Shown here one piece after another: positions 1 to 48,234 of a stretch of 64,000 nt of DNA. The stretch lies in the NCBI RefSeq assembly GCF_028993635.1, contig NZ_CP118631.1, positions 3,410,001 to 3,474,000 on the forward strand, given 5' to 3'. The notes beneath the pieces were generated by a model. It saw only the letters and a list, made by a program, of their open reading frames with translations. It ran no database searches and was not told the DNA's origin. The translations under genes were made by a program, and so were the position numbers. Numbering within the stretch: the first letter of the stretch is position 1; the number at the start of each line of letters is the position of its first letter. This DNA is from Mucilaginibacter sp. SJ. Its GTDB lineage: Bacteria; Bacteroidota; Bacteroidia; Sphingobacteriales; Sphingobacteriaceae.

Positions 1-1411
1 CCATTTCATTTGGCTGCAGTTTTTTAGCTTTTGCTTTGCCAGCAAACTCTTTCACTTCAACCGAAATGTGGCTTAATGATTTACCATCGGCAAATTTGAT
101 AACCGGAACCAGTAAACCTTCGTCAACAGCAACGGCAACGCCAACGTGAACATGCTCATTAGTGCGGATCTTATCACCCAGGAATGATGAGTTGATAGCA
201 GGGTGCTGCCTTAAGGCTACAGCACAAGCTTTAACAACAAAATCATTAAATGAAATTTTAACCGGAGCAATCTCGTTCATACGGGTACGGGCAGTAATTG
301 CCTGATCCATATCAATGCTCATGGTTACGTAGAAATGCGGAGCAGTAAACAAACTTTCGCTTAAGCGGCGGCTGATAGCTTTACGCATTTGAGTAACCGG
401 CCTTTCGCTAAATTTCTCTTCGCCTGTAAAGGTTGGCAATACGATAGGTGCCTTTGCAGCGGGAGCGGCAGACGGAGCAGCGGCAGGCGTAGCTTCGGCA
501 GCAGCAGCCGGTTTGGCCGACGGTGTAAATTCCTCCACATCCTTTTTAATGATGCGGCCGCCTTCGGCGCTGCCTTTTACATCATTAAGGTTGATACCTT
601 TATCTTTAGCTATTTTACGTGCCAGCGGTGATGCTTTAACGCGGCTGTCATCAGTGTTAGAAGCTTCAGTGGCAGTAGCAGTTGCAGTTGCAGTCGCCTC
701 CGTTTTAGTTTCAGTAGCAGGTGCAGCTTCATCGGCGGCAGGAGCCGAACCACCATCCTGTAATAACGGTGTGATATCGGTACCTTCTTTACCTACTATA
801 GCAATGATATCATTTACTTTAGCGGCTTCACCTTCTTTAACACCTATATATAACAAGGTACCGGCCTCGTAACCCACAACTTCCATGGTAGCCTTATCGG
901 TTGCCACATCGGCCAGTGAATCATCTGCTTTTACTTTATCGCCAACTTTAAAGTTCCATTTTTCAATGGTACCTTCGGTCATGGTGTCGCTCAATAATGG
1001 CATGCGGATAACCGTAGCCGGAATGCTTGATAAATCAACCTTAGGTGCAGCTGGTGCCGGAGTAGCGGCAGGTGCTTTGTCGGCAGCGGGTGCTGCTTCT
1101 TTAGCAGGTTCTTCGGCCGGTTTTGCAGCAGCGCCGCTGCCAGCCTGATCAAGTAAAGACTTGTAATCTTCACCTTCTTTACCTAAAATGGCAATAACAG
1201 AATCAACCGGGGCGGCAGCACCTTCCTGTATACCTATATACAGCAATGTACCATCCTGGTACGATTCAAAATCCATGGTAGCTTTATCAGTTTCAATCTC
1301 GGCCAGTACATCGCCCGATTTAACCTTGTCGCCAACTTTTTTATGCCATTTCGCCAATACCCCTTCGGTCATGGTATCGCTCATTTTAGGCATTTTTACT
1401 ACTTCGGCCAT
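1..1411 (-). CDS. Pyruvate dehydrogenase E2, dihydrolipoamide acetyltransferase (C-terminus beyond window)
   Basis: E2 of the pyruvate dehydrogenase complex transfers acetyl groups from E1 to CoA through lipoyl-lysine arms. The reading frame opens with ATG at 1411 and stays open to base 1, so the catalytic C-terminus is cut off by the window edge. Two lipoyl domains are visible, at about residues 1-80 and 135-210. Each has a DKA lipoylation motif; the first lysine is residue 43. Ala/Pro-rich linkers follow, then a peripheral subunit-binding domain (ASPLARKIAKDKGI) and the start of the acetyltransferase domain (motif FTAPHFYVTMSIDMD). It lies 114 bp downstream of the E1 alpha gene on the same strand, so the two are probably co-transcribed. 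The linker after lipoyl domain 2 is encoded partly by a hexanucleotide repeat near 672-695. E2 of another 2-oxoacid complex is possible but less likely beside E1 alpha of this type. Confidence 0.93.
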   Translation of the reverse strand, partial: MAEVVKMPKMSDTMTEGVLAKWHKKVGDKVKSGDVLAEIETDKATMDFESYQDGTLLYIGIQEGAAAPVDSVIAILGKEGEDYKSLLDQAGSGAAAKPAEEPAKEAAPAADKAPAATPAPAAPKVDLSSIPATVIRMPLLSDTMTEGTIEKWNFKVGDKVKADDSLADVATDKATMEVVGYEAGTLLYIGVKEGEAAKVNDIIAIVGKEGTDITPLLQDGGSAPAADEAAPATETKTEATATATATATEASNTDDSRVKASPLARKIAKDKGINLNDVKGSAEGGRIIKKDVEEFTPSAKPAAAAEATPAAAPSAAPAAKAPIVLPTFTGEEKFSERPVTQMRKAISRRLSESLFTAPHFYVTMSIDMDQAITARTRMNEIAPVKISFNDFVVKACAVALRQHPAINSSFLGDKIRTNEHVHVGVAVAVDEGLLVPVIKFADGKSLSHISVEVKEFAGKAKAKKLQPNEM

Positions 1412-41946: not shown

Positions 41947-41952
41947 AGGACT

Positions 41953-42480
41953 ATGATAAAGAAGCCTGTTTTTCCGTTGCTTGCGGCTATTTTATTTTGG
42001 GGCAGCTGTGCTATGCTGCAATCAGTTGTTAAATCTACTTTTCCGTATACTGCTACTATGGTTATCCCGGCATCGGCCAAAGTTGATGAGGCGCAAACAG
42101 CAGTTAGCACGGGCAACAGCTTTGACCAGGATTTTACTAAAGATGGCAACAATGCCAGCAGGATAAGCGAGGTGCGTATCATATCAGCCAAACTGCAGTC
42201 GAGCGATCCATCAGATTATAACATCGGCAATATAGCTTCATTAAGGGTATACATGGCTAAAAATGATGGCAGCGAAGAGGTGATGGTTGCCATACGTAAA
42301 GATATCCAACCCAACGCCGGCAACAGCATCGTACTTGACATTGACAACTCACACTTTTTAGACGAACTGGTGCGGCAACCAAGCGTGCGCATCCGGATGG
42401 TTTACCGTTTGCGTAAAGCTACGGCAACTGATGCCAGCCTGAAAGTATCATTGGGAATTGGGTCGTACCCGGCTAATTAA
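41953..42480 (+). CDS. Lipoprotein of unknown function, 175 residues
   Basis: From ATG 41953 the protein has a lipoprotein signal (MIKKPVFPLLAAILFWGSC, cysteine 19). The mature part is beta-rich (SKASRISEVRI-like segment at residues 65-80, LRVYMAKNDGSEEVMVAIRKDI, SIVLDIDNSHFLDELV, VRIRMVYRLRKA) and looks like a compact surface domain. An upstream in-frame start at 41917 would place the promoter inside the gene and is rejected. The gene converges on panD. I recognise no family. Confidence 0.68.
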   Translation: MIKKPVFPLLAAILFWGSCAMLQSVVKSTFPYTATMVIPASAKVDEAQTAVSTGNSFDQDFTKDGNNASRISEVRIISAKLQSSDPSDYNIGNIASLRVYMAKNDGSEEVMVAIRKDIQPNAGNSIVLDIDNSHFLDELVRQPSVRIRMVYRLRKATATDASLKVSLGIGSYPAN

Positions 42481-42501: not shown

Positions 42502-42852
42502 TTACTTAATCAGTTTGTTATCTGAATCGGGGAATATCAAAATAGGTTCGTAATTACGGGCTTCCTCTGTTTCCATATATGCATATGACATAATGATCAC
42601 AATATCGCCTACCTGTGCCAGACGGGCTGTAGCTCCGTTAAGGCATACGGTGCCTGTTCCGCGCTCGCCTTTGATAACATAAGTTTCAAATCGCGCGCCG
42701 TTATTATTGTTCACTATCTGAACCTTTTCGTTGGGGATGATATTTGCAGCCTCAATCAGGTCTTCATCAATAGTGATACTGCCCACATAATTCAACTCCG
42801 CCTGCGTTACCTTAACCCGGTGAATTTTGGACTTTAATATTTCAATTATCAT
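42502..42852 (-). CDS. panD: Aspartate 1-decarboxylase
   Basis: Makes beta-alanine for pantothenate. The 116-residue proenzyme has the self-cleavage site Gly24-Ser25 in YVGSITID, which creates the pyruvoyl group. The motif [18 protein letters not shown] and the C-terminal part fit the family, and the length is typical. panC lies 128 bp upstream on the same strand, so the two act in the same pathway and may share a transcript, though degenerate repeats fill the gap. Confidence 0.96.
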
Positions 42853-42867: not shown

Positions 42868-42985
42868 ATAAATTTAGTCGATAGTCCATAGTCGATAGTC
42901 CATAGATTGTAAAAGATTTTTCATCGGCCGGATAACCAGTCTACTGAAGCGTCCATGGACTATCGACTATGGGCTATCGACTAAG
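42868..42985. repeat. Inverted and direct TAGTCCATAGTCGA repeat between panC and panD
   Basis: Units of (A)TAGTC(G/C)ATAGTCCA at 42873-42907 are mirrored by TGGACTATCGACTATGGGCTATCGACTA at 42955-42982. The two clusters can pair as a long stem with a loop of about 50 nt. It would form in a panC-panD transcript and could act as terminator or processing site. Confidence 0.6.
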
Positions 42986-43838
42986 AAATCAACACATTAT
43001 CAATCAATCTTGTTTTACCTACGCGTGCTGCAACAAGGGCAACAATTGTTTCGGATGCGGGGTTGGCATGATGCAGTGTTTTGCCATCGGCTATTTCAAA
43101 ATACTCCAGCTCAACGCCGGGTTCGTTGCTGATCATTTGAGCTGCCTGCTGCTGCAGGGTGTCAATTTTGTTAATACCGAAGTTTTCATTAACCCAGTTA
43201 AGTGCTTTGGAGAGAATGAGCGAGTGTTCCCTGTCATACGGGGTGAGGTGAATGTTCCTTGAGCTCATGGCCAAGCCGTCGGGCTCACGTTCAATCGGGC
43301 ACATCACCAGCTTAACGGGCATCTCCAGTACCTCAACCATTTTACTGATCACCATAAACTGCTGGTAATCCTTCTGCCCGAAAAAAGCGATATCGGGCTT
43401 TACAATATTGAACAGCTTATTTACCACCTGTGTAACGCCCTGGTAATGCCCCGGCCTGAATTTTCCTTCCAGCAGGCGCTCCAGATCGCCCATGTCAAAA
43501 TGCCATTTTTCATTATCAGCATACATCTCGGTAACCTGCGGATTAAACAAAATATCGCAGTTAACTTCCTCAAGGCGGCGGATATCGTCAGTAATGGGTC
43601 GGGGGTATTTTTCAAGGTCCTTGGGGTCGTTAAACTGGGTGGGATTTACAAAAATGCTGCAAACAACCTGGGTGCTTTGCTGCTTTGCCAGTTCAATTAA
43701 ACCCAGGTGCCCTTTATGCAATGCGCCCATGGTAGGTACAAAGCCAATTACTTTTACCGGCTTACGGTTAAAATAATCGGTTATCTCATTTTTAGTGCTG
43801 AATATTTTCAACGTAATAGGTGTTACAAAATTTGGCAA
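42981..43838 (-). CDS. panC: Pantothenate synthetase
   Basis: Joins pantoate and beta-alanine using ATP. The 285-residue frame contains FVPTMGALHKGHLGLI (the HIGH-like motif), FVNPTQFND, FGQKDYQQF and LAMSSRNIHL (the KMSKS-like motif). The first ten residues before LKIFSTKNEI look unlike the family; a TTG codon at about 43808, giving MKIFST, is a plausible true start. The gene is divergent from the glycogen-synthase-like gene, an arrangement seen in Bacteroidota. Confidence 0.95.
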   Translation of the reverse strand: MPNFVTPITLKIFSTKNEITDYFNRKPVKVIGFVPTMGALHKGHLGLIELAKQQSTQVVCSIFVNPTQFNDPKDLEKYPRPITDDIRRLEEVNCDILFNPQVTEMYADNEKWHFDMGDLERLLEGKFRPGHYQGVTQVVNKLFNIVKPDIAFFGQKDYQQFMVISKMVEVLEMPVKLVMCPIEREPDGLAMSSRNIHLTPYDREHSLILSKALNWVNENFGINKIDTLQQQAAQMISNEPGVELEYFEIADGKTLHHANPASETIVALVAARVGKTRLIDNVLIS

Positions 43839-43885: not shown

Positions 43886-43916
43886 TTGGCAGTTTATATA
43901 ATAATAGTTATATTTG
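43886..43916 (+). promoter_or_regulatory. Promoter of the glgA-like/DUF4270 unit
   Basis: TTG at 43886-43888, a 20-bp spacer and TATATTTG at 43909-43916, an exact -7 consensus. The start codon lies 45 bp further on. Confidence 0.75.
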
Positions 43917-43961: not shown

Positions 43962-44789
43962 GTGATGGGTAAATCTAAGCTTTTGTTTATAACTCATGAA
44001 ATGTCCCCTTTCCTTGAACTCACAAAAATTGCTGAAATAACACGCCAACTTCCGCAGGCCATGCAGGAGAAAGGTTACGAGATCCGTATCCTTATGCCGC
44101 GTTTCGGCAATATCAATGAGCGCAGGAACAGGCTTCATGAAGTGATCAGGTTGTCAGGTATGAATATTATTATCGACGATAATGATAACCCGCTGATCAT
44201 CAAAGTAGCATCTATCCCGGCGGCGCGTATGCAGGTGTATTTTTTGGATAATGAAGAATATTTTCAGCGTAAGCATGTGTTTGCAGACAAAGACGGTAAG
44301 TTTTATGCCGACAATGACGAGCGCATGATTTTCTTTTGCAAAGGCGCATTGGAAACTGTTAAAAAATTAGGTTGGGCACCGGATGTGATCCATTGCCACG
44401 GCTGGATGAGCGCGCTTGTGCCTGCTTATCTGAAAACAACCTACAAAGACGATCCTACATTTAAGCACTCAAAAATCATTTACTCTATTTATGAAAATGA
44501 TTTCAAAGAGCAATTGCACAATGACTTTGCTACAAAAGCCATCATGAGCAATATGAACGAGCAGCATGTGGAGCCGTACAAAGGCGGCACCAATTCGGCG
44601 CTGTATGCCGGTGCAATCCACTACTCAGATGGTATTGTTTTAGGCAGCCCTGATATTGATGCAGATGTGTTAAATAATGTTAAAAACAGCAATAAATCGG
44701 TTTTAGACTTTGATTCTACCGCAGATTTCGAAAATTATTACAATTTTTACGACGAAATTACCAACGACGAATTGGTGGATGTTGCATAA
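43962..44789 (+). CDS. Glycogen/starch synthase-like N-terminal domain protein
   Basis: The 275-residue protein matches the N-terminal (acceptor) half of GT5 glycogen synthases: KLLFITHEMSPFLELTKIAEITRQLP, EIRILMPRFG, FFCKGALETVKKLGWAPDVIHCHGWMSALVP and NNVKNSNKSVLD. The usual K-x-G-G-L motif is replaced by ELTKIAEI. The whole C-terminal nucleotide-sugar-binding half is missing. It therefore cannot be assumed to make glycogen, and a regulatory or binding role is possible. It is followed 15 bp later by the DUF4270 gene in an apparent operon. Confidence 0.85.
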   Translation: MMGKSKLLFITHEMSPFLELTKIAEITRQLPQAMQEKGYEIRILMPRFGNINERRNRLHEVIRLSGMNIIIDDNDNPLIIKVASIPAARMQVYFLDNEEYFQRKHVFADKDGKFYADNDERMIFFCKGALETVKKLGWAPDVIHCHGWMSALVPAYLKTTYKDDPTFKHSKIIYSIYENDFKEQLHNDFATKAIMSNMNEQHVEPYKGGTNSALYAGAIHYSDGIVLGSPDIDADVLNNVKNSNKSVLDFDSTADFENYYNFYDEITNDELVDVA

Positions 44790-44804: not shown

Positions 44805-46208
44805 ATGAAATTTTTCCGATTAGACTTATTGACCCTGTTAATAAGTCTTTTTATTTTGAACAGTTGTAAACGCCAGGATGGTATTGGTTTGGGCGTCAAT
44901 GATCAAAACGAGATCAATGGCAACCTGATAGTTGATACTAACATCGTTATTAACACTGTTGTTGATGATACCGCAGCTACCTCGGCTCAAACCCGGACAC
45001 CGCTTGCCAACTTTACCGATCCTGTATTTGGAACAACAAAAAGTATCGTTGCTTTAGGTGTTAACCTGCCTAACGGTGCCGCTTACACAGTTCCCGCGGG
45101 TACCCTGACAATCGACTCGGCTGTACTTGTGCTAAAATATGCTGACGGTTTTTATGGCGATTCGCTGGCTTCACGCTATAAAATAAACGTGTATCAGCTT
45201 CAACAAAAGGTAGAAAGCAAAACTTATTACAGCAATAACCACTGGGATGCCGATCTGGGCACTTTGCTTGGGTCTAAGACCTTCACAGCCCGTACGCATG
45301 ATAGTATCACCATAGCCCGCATCCGTACCGACACATTAGATACCGTTCAGCGCGTAGCACCTCAGTTACGTGTACCGCTTAGTAAAGCTTTTATCTATAA
45401 CAACCTGTTTAATGCAAGCGGTGCTGTACTTGCATCACCAACAACTTTTCAAAGTACTATAAAAGGCCTTTACCTTTCATTAGACAAGGCACAGGCCAGC
45501 GATGCCGGCGGTATTATTCAGCTCAATCTGGCCTCATCGCAAATTGATGTTTTTTATAAGGTTGTTACCGCCTCCACCAGTACAACATCCAGTACCATTG
45601 ATACGGCATCCGTAACCCTGCCGTTCTTTAACCGTGCTGCCGAAATTACGCATACTTATAGTACTACTATCCAGGCAGCCCTGAATAATACAACAACATC
45701 GCAAAATACGGTTTACCTCCAGGGGCTTGCAGGCTTAAGGGCTAAGCTTAGTTTCCCCGGCCTTGACAAGCTTGTTGACTCATCGGTAGTGTTAAACCGT
45801 GCCGAAATTGTTATCACCCCGCGCGCGGGTTCAGGTGTACCTTATGCGCCTTTACCTAAGCTTACCATGTACAAGCTGGATATAGCTAAACAACGGGCAC
45901 TGATACAGGATGCATCTGCAAGTGACCCGCGTTCGCAAACAAGTTTATTTGGCGGCAATTATGACCGTACCAAAAAAGAATACCATTTCCTGGTTACAGC
46001 TTTTGTTCAGGACCTGATCCGTAAAAAAACAGTTGATTACGGCACCTACATTGCCCCGGTTGATACTACACTTATTAACACCACAACAGGTATTGACGTG
46101 GCGCCGTCAACACAAACGGCAGCCCGTACGGTGATAGTGGGGAGTGATAAGGCAACCCCGGGTTATAGCATCCGCATGAACATCATTTACACCAAGGTCC
46201 GCAAGTAA
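44805..46208 (+). CDS. DUF4270 lipoprotein
   Basis: The 467-residue protein has a lipoprotein signal (lipobox LNSC, about residue 21). The N-terminal mature part GIGLGVNDQNEINGNLIVDTN and the later PLANFTDPVFGTTKSIVALGVNLP match the DUF4270 family of Bacteroidota surface lipoproteins. The C-terminal part has beta strands and a segment YHFLVTAFVQDLIRKK. Its place between a glycogen-synthase-like gene and glmS is a typical Bacteroidota arrangement. Its function is unknown; a role linked to surface polysaccharide is only inferred. Confidence 0.88.
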   Translation: MKFFRLDLLTLLISLFILNSCKRQDGIGLGVNDQNEINGNLIVDTNIVINTVVDDTAATSAQTRTPLANFTDPVFGTTKSIVALGVNLPNGAAYTVPAGTLTIDSAVLVLKYADGFYGDSLASRYKINVYQLQQKVESKTYYSNNHWDADLGTLLGSKTFTARTHDSITIARIRTDTLDTVQRVAPQLRVPLSKAFIYNNLFNASGAVLASPTTFQSTIKGLYLSLDKAQASDAGGIIQLNLASSQIDVFYKVVTASTSTTSSTIDTASVTLPFFNRAAEITHTYSTTIQAALNNTTTSQNTVYLQGLAGLRAKLSFPGLDKLVDSSVVLNRAEIVITPRAGSGVPYAPLPKLTMYKLDIAKQRALIQDASASDPRSQTSLFGGNYDRTKKEYHFLVTAFVQDLIRKKTVDYGTYIAPVDTTLINTTTGIDVAPSTQTAARTVIVGSDKATPGYSIRMNIIYTKVRK

Positions 46209-46398: not shown

Positions 46399-48234
46399 AT
46401 GTGCGGAATTGTTGGTTATATAGGATTCAGGGATGCTTACCCTATTGTTATAAAAGGGCTTCACAGGCTCGAATACCGGGGCTATGACAGTGCCGGTGTC
46501 GCCCTGCTTAATCATGACCTTAAAGTTTATAAAAAGGCCGGCAAGGTTGAGGACCTTGAAAATTTTGTGAAGGGGATTGACCTGAAGGGAACAATTGGAA
46601 TGGGCCATACCCGCTGGGCCACCCACGGCGAACCGAGCGACCGTAACTCGCACCCCCACTCATCAGGCGACAGAAAACTCACCATTATCCACAACGGTAT
46701 TATTGAAAACTATGGAGTGATCAAGGAAACCCTTGCAGCTAAAGGCCATGTTTTAAAAAGCGATACGGATACTGAGGTTTTAATACACCTGATTGAGGAT
46801 ATCCAAAAGGAAACCGGTCTTGATTTGAAAGATGCCGTACGCGTGGCTTTAAACAAAGTGATAGGCGCATACGCCATTGTGATTATGAGTGCCGATGAGC
46901 CCGATTTGCTTATTGCGGCCCGTAAAGGCAGCCCCATGGTGATTGGCGTAGGCAAAGGCGAATATTTCATAGCTTCAGACGCTACACCTATTGTGGAATA
47001 TACCAAAAATGTGATCTACCTGAACGATAACGAAATTGCCTATGTACACCGTGAAAGCTTACTGGTAAAAAACATCGACAATTCGGTACAAACCCCCTAC
47101 ATCCAGGAGCTGGACCTAAAACTTGAAATGCTTGAAAAAGGCGGCTACGACCATTTCATGATGAAAGAGATCTATGAGCAGCCCCGTTCCATCCGCGACT
47201 GCCTGCGCGGCCGTATTTACCCCCAGCAGGGCAAAGTTCAGCTTGGTGGCATTAAGGAATACACTGAGAAGCTTAAAAACGTTGACAGGATCATTATCGT
47301 AGCCTGCGGTACCTCCTGGCATGCGGGTTTGGTAGGAGAATACCTGATTGAAGAATACGCGCGTGTGCCGGTAGAAGTTGAATATGCCTCCGAGTTCAGG
47401 TACCGCAACCCAATCATTACTGAAAAAGACCTGGTGATAGCCATTTCCCAATCGGGCGAAACAGCCGATACCATGGCCGCCATAGAACTGGCTAAGGAAA
47501 AAGGCGCTACCATTTTCGGCATTTGTAATGTGGTAGGTGCATCTATTCCGCGTTTAACACATGCGGGTGTGTATACCCATGCCGGGCCCGAAATTGGCGT
47601 AGCATCCACCAAAGCCTTCACCGCCCAGGTAAGCGTACTAACGCTGATAGCTTTTTACATAGCCCAGCAGCGGGGTAAAATCACCCAAAGCAAAATGGTT
47701 GAATATTTAACCGGCTTAAACGAGATCCCGAACCTGGTACAGGAGGCGCTGAAATCAAACGAACATATCCGGCAAATTGCAGCCCGGTTTAAAGATTCGA
47801 CCAATTGCCTGTTCCTGGGCAGGGGCAGCTCATTCCCTGTAGCGCTGGAAGGCGCTTTAAAGCTCAAGGAGATCTCCTACATCCATGCCGAAGGTTATCC
47901 TGCCGCTGAGATGAAACATGGCCCTATCGCCTTAATTGATGATGAAATGCCGGTGGTGTTCATCGCCACCAAACATTCATCATACGAAAAGGTGATCAGT
48001 AACATACAGGAAGTAAAAGCCCGCAAAGGCCACGTCATTGCCATTGTTTCCGAAGGCGATACCGAAGTAAAAGGCATGGCCGATTATGTGATAGAGATCC
48101 CGCAAACCAATGAGGCATTTGTACCGTTAGTGGCAACTATCCCGCTGCAGTTACTGGCTTATCACATAGCTGTAATGCGCGGCTGTAACGTTGATCAGCC
48201 CCGTAACCTGGCCAAGTCGGTTACTGTTGAATAA
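46399..48234 (+). CDS. glmS: Glutamine-fructose-6-phosphate aminotransferase (isomerizing)
   Basis: Makes glucosamine-6-phosphate, the first step to peptidoglycan and LPS amino sugars. From ATG 46399 the protein has 611 residues; the catalytic cysteine must be residue 2 (MCGIVGYIG), which fixes this start and rejects the frame extension to 46366. The glutaminase domain contains GHTRWATHGEPSDRNSHPH. Two SIS domains follow (IIVACGTSWHAG, AISQSGETADTMAA) and the C-terminus ends in PRNLAKSVTVE as expected. No glmS ribozyme-like structure was noticed in the 150-bp leader. Confidence 0.97.
   Translation: MCGIVGYIGFRDAYPIVIKGLHRLEYRGYDSAGVALLNHDLKVYKKAGKVEDLENFVKGIDLKGTIGMGHTRWATHGEPSDRNSHPHSSGDRKLTIIHNGIIENYGVIKETLAAKGHVLKSDTDTEVLIHLIEDIQKETGLDLKDAVRVALNKVIGAYAIVIMSADEPDLLIAARKGSPMVIGVGKGEYFIASDATPIVEYTKNVIYLNDNEIAYVHRESLLVKNIDNSVQTPYIQELDLKLEMLEKGGYDHFMMKEIYEQPRSIRDCLRGRIYPQQGKVQLGGIKEYTEKLKNVDRIIIVACGTSWHAGLVGEYLIEEYARVPVEVEYASEFRYRNPIITEKDLVIAISQSGETADTMAAIELAKEKGATIFGICNVVGASIPRLTHAGVYTHAGPEIGVASTKAFTAQVSVLTLIAFYIAQQRGKITQSKMVEYLTGLNEIPNLVQEALKSNEHIRQIAARFKDSTNCLFLGRGSSFPVALEGALKLKEISYIHAEGYPAAEMKHGPIALIDDEMPVVFIATKHSSYEKVISNIQEVKARKGHVIAIVSEGDTEVKGMADYVIEIPQTNEAFVPLVATIPLQLLAYHIAVMRGCNVDQPRNLAKSVTVE

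Follow-up and report, generated by a model that had tools for sequence, protein, structure and literature searches.

A half-length glycogen synthase homologue, nearly universal in genomes drawn from its bacterial class, is probably not a glycogen synthase

The locus and its immediate neighbours

The window analysed here is the whole stretch of 64,000 nucleotides taken from the genome of Mucilaginibacter sp. SJ (contig NZ_CP118631.1, positions 3,410,001 to 3,474,000), and all coordinates refer to it. Positions 43965 to 44789 of its forward strand hold a gene for 274 amino acids plus the stop codon, which the open reading frame, Pfam and a structural model describe as a single-lobe GT5 protein derived from the glycogen synthase GlgA; its product is called here the half-length protein, or the half. 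The ATG at 43965 is more likely to be the start than the GTG at 43962, because an ATG occupies the same place in 11 of 11 printed sequences, some of which carry GGAG just before it. The stop codon lies at 44787-44789, and 15 bp further on, at 44805, is the ATG of a gene for a DUF4270 lipoprotein (44805 to 46208, forward strand), assigned to bamH by Pfam and by homology to solved BamH. It is followed by glmS (46399 to 48234, forward strand, named by eye), and upstream, on the reverse strand, are the divergent panC (42981 to 43838) and panD (42502 to 42852), both identified by Pfam. The first-pass annotation, made on the letters alone, had already described the 15-bp spacing to a lipoprotein gene and the proximity of panC and glmS. 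Convergent to panD, a lipoprotein-like protein of 176 amino acids is encoded at 41950-42477 (forward strand), for which Pfam returned no family at E <= 1.

A promoter-like site, composed of TTGG, 19 bases and TATATTTG, precedes the gene at 43886 to 43916 on the forward strand. The consensus used for comparison is TTTG at -33 and TAnnTTTG at -7. The -7 element (TATATTTG, 43909-43916) matches TAnnTTTG exactly and the -33 element, TTGG, 19 bases upstream of it, agrees in three of four letters, so that the promoter formerly described as exact in its consensus is exact only in its -7 part. A TAnnTTTG box occurs near the same place in 11 of 11 printed upstream sequences.

Domain content and predicted structure

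The only Pfam family that exceeds its cut-off on the protein is PF08323 (Glyco_transf_5), at residues 5-237 (E 2.9e-56, 191.3 bits against a cut-off of 22.7), and, judging by Pfam and by the length of the 274-aa frame, the donor-binding C-terminal lobe of the GT-B fold is absent. None of the 12 listed NCBIfam models for GlgA or starch synthase reaches its cut-off, the best full-length GlgA model scoring 185.5 bits against 754 (PRK14098) and TIGR02095 134.4 against 328.45. In the place of the KxGGL motif, residues 18-22 read ELTKI (44016 to 44030, forward strand). The claims that only the N-terminal GT5 half is present and that KxGGL has been replaced were thus borne out, and since both the C-lobe and the motif are missing, ordinary synthase activity is improbable, as had been proposed. 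No signal peptide is visible at the N-terminus of the half. The genome contains one other PF08323 match, a GlgA of 474 amino acids about 0.58 Mb away.

Structure prediction, which had been suggested as a check, returned the fold of a GT5 N-lobe, with a pLDDT of 91.1 and a pTM of 0.91 for the AlphaFold2 model. Residues 2-269 of the model align with the chain range 23..516 of starch synthase IV (Z 28.6, 253 residues), and likewise with 1..477 of the E. coli glycogen synthase and 1..478 of the Agrobacterium enzyme; because these ranges run to the enzyme ends (516, 477 and 478), the C-terminal end of the half coincides with that of the enzymes. The C-terminal helix of the model, residues 256-267 (44730 to 44765, forward strand), corresponds in the alignment to the final helix of full-length GlgA, and the sequence motif of that tail is found in 27 of 43 halves, compared with a mean of 3.7 and a maximum of 11 after shuffling; the strict form of the motif is missing in the other 16. 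The loss of the C-lobe therefore looks, from the model, like an internal excision in which the terminal GlgA helix was kept. Simple 3' truncation is disfavoured, compared with internal excision, by the structural alignment to the enzyme end and by the tail motif.

Distribution among genomes

Among genomes drawn from the class, the half is near-universal: 283 of 295 have a match, as do 251 of the 253 of high quality, the two exceptions being in about 410 contigs (G378) and about 300 contigs (G408). The open frames range from 269 to 328 amino acids among the class-draw matches listed. In the wider phylum draw, 294 of 296 genomes match either the half or a full-length GT5 protein.

Two sets of loci were compared. 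Set A consists of 60 loci, 44 with a half and 16 with a full-length GT5 gene; it comprises 34 of the 38 half-length best hits besides the locus described above (G008, G038 and G054 were left out), 10 of the 42 full-length best hits, and a further 10 half-length and six full-length loci from the phylum draw. Set B consists of 80 named loci, the nearest from Mucilaginibacter and others from Pedobacter, Sphingobacterium, Chitinophaga, Odoribacter and further genera. The expectation that the C-terminal half would always be absent holds within the class, where each of the 80 named loci and of the 21 genome-draw loci examined encodes a half-length protein, and fails in the phylum, where the gene is full-length at 16 loci from other lineages, 14 of them upstream of bamH.

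Identity of the lipoprotein neighbour and conservation of gene order

Alone, the DUF4270 protein matches the solved BamH chain 9n2d_C with an E value of 7.6e-7, and a profile built from 18 DUF4270 neighbours matches 9n2d_C at 8.4e-122, 9hjm_G at 1.6e-29 and 9his_G at 3.1e-18. The NCBIfam model BamH_fj covers residues 10-464 with 93.6 bits, below its cut-off of 420, and the lipobox cysteine C21 is invariant in all 18 neighbours. On this homology we identify the protein as BamH, a subunit of the Bacteroidota BAM complex; the former label of surface lipoprotein is kept as to the lipoprotein and sharpened as to its identity. For Flavobacterium johnsoniae, the pertinent sections of PMC12611786 describe BamG and BamH as conserved and as necessary for BAM to function, and the corresponding sections of PMC12578637 name BT4306 as the BamH of B. 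thetaiotaomicron, whose deletion is harmful, not lethal.

The linkage of the half with bamH is real and old. No more than 300 bp downstream, and on the same strand, there is a bamH gene at 39 of the 44 half loci of set A and at 63 of the 76 loci of set B that had room for it, and panC is divergent upstream in 20/44 and 61/76, respectively, so that the proposed survey found the order widely conserved. Full-length GT5 genes have a BamH-like lipoprotein gene within 1500 bp downstream in 14 of 16 cases, and bamG follows in 10 of 16. The order half, BamH-like lipoprotein, BamG is present in 22 of the 44 half loci of set A and in none of the 75 loci of set B with room. BamG itself was recognised in three examples by NCBIfam (E 8.7e-55, 5.5e-70 and 2.3e-76, the last over the cut-off). 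The lipoproteins of the deep branches were classed as BamH-like by an iterated profile, whose one off-target hit was a second BamH-like frame at the same locus, by profile-profile comparison (probability 99.8 and 99.7, 377 columns each) and by position; searched against solved structures, their profiles gave no BamH at E <= 1. In Mucilaginibacter sp. SJ, bamG (G000:C1:3052767-3054002) is about 0.4 Mb from bamH, the two being adjacent in other lineages.

Two further genes recur in these operons. A protein of about 440 amino acids with TPR repeats is encoded after bamG in 20 half and four full-length GT5 loci of the 60 in set A (L050, L052-L060, L063-L072, L083, L084, L085 and L089), and its position makes it a candidate BAM-linked protein in those lineages. 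Directly after the full-length GT5 gene, a HAD phosphatase of about 200 amino acids, Pfam HAD in one example and GmhB-like by eye, is encoded in 15 of 16 loci (L076-L081 and L083-L091) and in none of the half loci scanned; it may have left the operon together with the C-lobe.

Origin of the half

A tree of the N-lobe (82 rows, 202 columns) places 46 halves in one clade with support of 100/100, nested among the full-length GT5 proteins of the same locus; canonical GlgA rows have support of 99/95 and were used by us as the root. The KxGGL columns were kept in this tree, which is flagged for long branches that meet among the canonical GlgA rows, and the one-clade result also rests on an earlier quick tree of 86 rows. 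The long branches L210, L212, L213 and L092 were left out of the 82-row tree, and L191, which has no KxGGL frame, out of both; L064 is outside the table of 44 halves used for residue counts, alignment A1 and the trees, and L082, a half, is outside A1. Because the halves form one clade among full-length GlgA proteins whose genes precede bamH in other lineages, the C-lobe was probably lost once.

Among the full-length proteins, L087 and L088 have the KxGGL motif changed to RTSAL and RISAL and are the sole PF08323 matches of their genomes. Their hosts look like green sulfur bacteria, to judge by neighbouring genes that resemble chlorophyll genes by eye.

Residue conservation and selection

The KxGGL motif is present in none of 44 halves and in none of the 80 named halves, as against 13 of the 16 full-length proteins of the locus. 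Two further positions, those of the catalytic His161 and of Asp137, are ones that we take to matter in E. coli GlgA. At the position of His161 the half studied here has Tyr, and among the 44 halves His is kept in 12 and replaced in 32; at that of Asp137, Asp is found in 16 of 44.

Other positions do not vary. An alignment of 43 diverse halves has 29 invariant positions, among them R53, L57-H58-E59-V60, R62-L63, K80-V81-A82, Q90-V91-Y92-F93, D95, F100, D116-N117, R120, W137, H143 and F166. E12 and P15, invariant as well, are common to full-length GlgA and may be structural rather than functional. The segment of residues 52-65 (ERRNRLHEVIRLSG, 44118 to 44159, forward strand) is highly conserved in the family and belongs to lower-confidence blocks of the model (67 and 72). 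By the strand assignment of the model, a number of conserved residues are placed after the C-terminal ends of strands and would thus face what is the cleft side in a GT-B enzyme.

In five close Mucilaginibacter pairs, dN/dS is 0.06-0.083, values that are rough because dS is near 1 or above in these pairs and was not computable for three more (L100, L101 and L106). The half is under strong purifying selection and, as the phylum and class surveys and dN/dS show, its gene is a real one and not a chance open reading frame. An artefact of truncation or a pseudogene is ruled out by the 29 invariant positions, dN/dS and the presence in 251 of 253 genomes. For the same reasons it is hardly credible that the half is a selectively neutral leftover that travels with an important operon: that it is a shortened enzyme whose gene ends 15 bp before bamH would suit such a remnant, yet the protein is also retained in a strongly reduced genome (G317) with no bamH beside it.

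The pattern of losses bears likewise on the idea that the half is a still-active part of a glycosyltransferase whose donor lobe is supplied by a second gene. GT-B enzymes split in this way are known, Alg13/Alg14 being an example in which, as here, one GT-B lobe is encoded alone, and the lobe that is retained is the acceptor lobe. However, KxGGL is gone from all 44 halves, 32 of them have a residue other than His at the His161 position, and, unlike in Alg13/Alg14, no gene for a partner lobe was found when the Mucilaginibacter sp. SJ genome was searched with one GT5 C-lobe query. That query recovered no lone C-lobe gene; its hits were the full GlgA (the 474-aa frame) and two weak ones in frames of 428 and 375 amino acids. 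The separate gene for the missing half, named earlier as one finding that would refute the first reading, thus did not appear in this search, and we regard a split enzyme as very unlikely. Low or partner-dependent activity of the half is possible, as is a partner lobe from another family.

Relation to glycogen genes and to the BAM complex

The half does not follow the glycogen genes. Out of 25 half-bearing genomes, GlgB exceeds its cut-off in 11 and falls below it in 14, seven of which have no GlgB match whatever; two of the sub-cut-off matches, in G534 and G072, are long (268 and 266 bits) and could represent a different type of branching enzyme. In six genomes (G017, G029, G041, G045, G072 and G069) the half is the sole PF08323 match. 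Strict reliance on glycogen genes is disfavoured by the halves that occur without a GlgB match or without another PF08323 protein. It is also quite unlikely, in our view, that the half regulates or scaffolds glycogen metabolism, for instance by binding glucan or by competing with full GlgA. Its descent from GlgA and the 11 genomes with GlgB would agree with such a role, as would locus L055, where glgB (Pfam) is three genes upstream of the half, with similar maps in its relatives, an arrangement that would fit a glycogen link in that lineage; against it are the seven genomes without GlgB and the six without another PF08323 match, in a search that covered GT5 as distinct from GT3 synthases. By eye, L055 also has a malQ-like gene, and L067 a glgC-like one close to its half.

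Nor does the half always accompany bamH. The two are not adjacent in L033, L108, L110-L115 and a few other loci; in seven named loci among L108-L115 the half is still beside panC, and in the genome of L033 (G002) DUF4270 is found elsewhere than beside the half. A strict need for an adjacent bamH is rejected by L033 (G002), L108 and L110-L115. G534 has a half and an Omp85 match and no BamG match. The most reduced case is G317 (L210), a class genome of one contig of 489,825 bases and the only representative of its order in our sample, in which the half, in a stretch of 21% GC, is flanked by enolase and gyrB and has no adjacent bamH in the list of open reading frames. Searches of G317 for BamG and Omp85 gave no match, and diverged genes are possible in a genome that evolves so fast. 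Its half has LHDV in the LHEV loop and a tail of the Y..IY type, and by eye D at E59 and S at H143, so that not every position called invariant is needed.

These observations weigh on the proposal that the half serves outer-membrane biogenesis as a dedicated accessory in the cytoplasm, where it would tie sugar or glycan status to the supply of BamH and BamG. The proximity of bamH (39/44 and 63/76 half loci, 14/16 full-length GT5 loci) and of bamG (22/44 and 10/16) speaks for it. However, the half is retained at loci that lack an adjacent bamH and in genomes without a BamG match (G534) or without BamG and Omp85 matches (G317), bamG is next in none of the 75 loci of set B, no signal peptide is visible, and the main texts of two BAM papers do not mention glycogen, synthase or glycosyltransferase. 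We consider this accessory role unlikely, and the specific role in the envelope that had been suggested from the sequence is weakened by the same loci. Since the half persists without glgB, with bamH elsewhere and in G317, it is probably not a glycogen synthase, and probably not an obligate part of BAM either.

Discussion

The explanation that we favour, with somewhat more conviction than doubt, is that the half is a single-lobe pseudoenzyme derived from GlgA that acts in the cytoplasm as a binding protein, as a sensor or scaffold. Its parts differ in strength: that it is a dead enzyme is highly probable, and for a function as sensor or scaffold the chances appear to us evenly balanced. With GT5 GlgA (PF08323, TIGR02095) it shares the fold and sequence of the N-lobe, the last helix and common descent, and it differs in having no C-lobe, no KxGGL, a mostly changed His161 position and no tie to glycogen genes.

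According to this pseudoenzyme model, the half most likely descends from a full-length GlgA of the kind whose gene precedes bamH, and frequently bamG as well, elsewhere in the phylum. The donor-binding C-lobe is gone and the last helix, which folds back on the N-lobe, has stayed in the model, leaving a one-domain protein that may work in the cytoplasm without chemistry. A ligand or partner could be bound by the former acceptor-side edge of the sheet (E12, P15, N96, D116-N117, R120, H143 and W147), and the R53...LHEV..RL loop may contribute to binding either a ligand (a sugar, glucan or nucleotide) or a protein partner. A transcript shared with bamH would co-ordinate dosage in most lineages and would be dispensable for the function of the half. 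An excision of this kind illustrates a route from a two-lobe GT-B enzyme to a one-lobe protein. In a broader version, which we hold to be a modest possibility, a GT-B lobe became, by a single excision of the donor lobe, a sensor or scaffold with a near-universal housekeeping role. It would couple a sugar or nucleotide-sugar signal to a core process, in most lineages the supply of the envelope by way of bamH and glmS, and would be important enough to persist in the 0.49-Mb genome without detected BAM.

A GlgA 'fragment' in Bacteroidetes is already in print, in one sentence, within passages that give no locus, structure, origin or function, and it is most likely the same gene. In the main texts of the open-access literature we found no paper on the linkage of the half with bamH, on an internal excision or on an existence independent of glycogen. 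It appears that in a major bacterial group, with members in the gut, the mouth and soil, a core gene is mislabelled 'glycogen synthase'. In Bacteroides thetaiotaomicron, BT_4307 is annotated as a putative glycogen synthase in the passages that mention it in PMC10797578 and PMC8941943, and the consecutive tags of BT_4307 and BT4306 indicate apparently the same gene order; the likeness is one of tag order beside the BamH gene, not of compared sequence. In contrast to our reading, PMC10797578 takes BT_4307, where it is mentioned, as a sign of possible glycogen storage, an argument that would fail for a protein like the half.

For P. gingivalis, the section of PMC10434189 that names PG1042 lists it alongside feoB and a regulator of the DtxR type rather than bamH, and the literature mentions of BT_4307 and PG1042 yielded no tested function. 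An orthogroup called glycogen synthase, a candidate counterpart of the gene studied here, is reported under positive selection in P. gingivalis in the relevant part of PMC10394638. BT_4307 also appears in a table of a B12 affinity-probe screen of B. thetaiotaomicron in PMC8941943, an entry that may be background.
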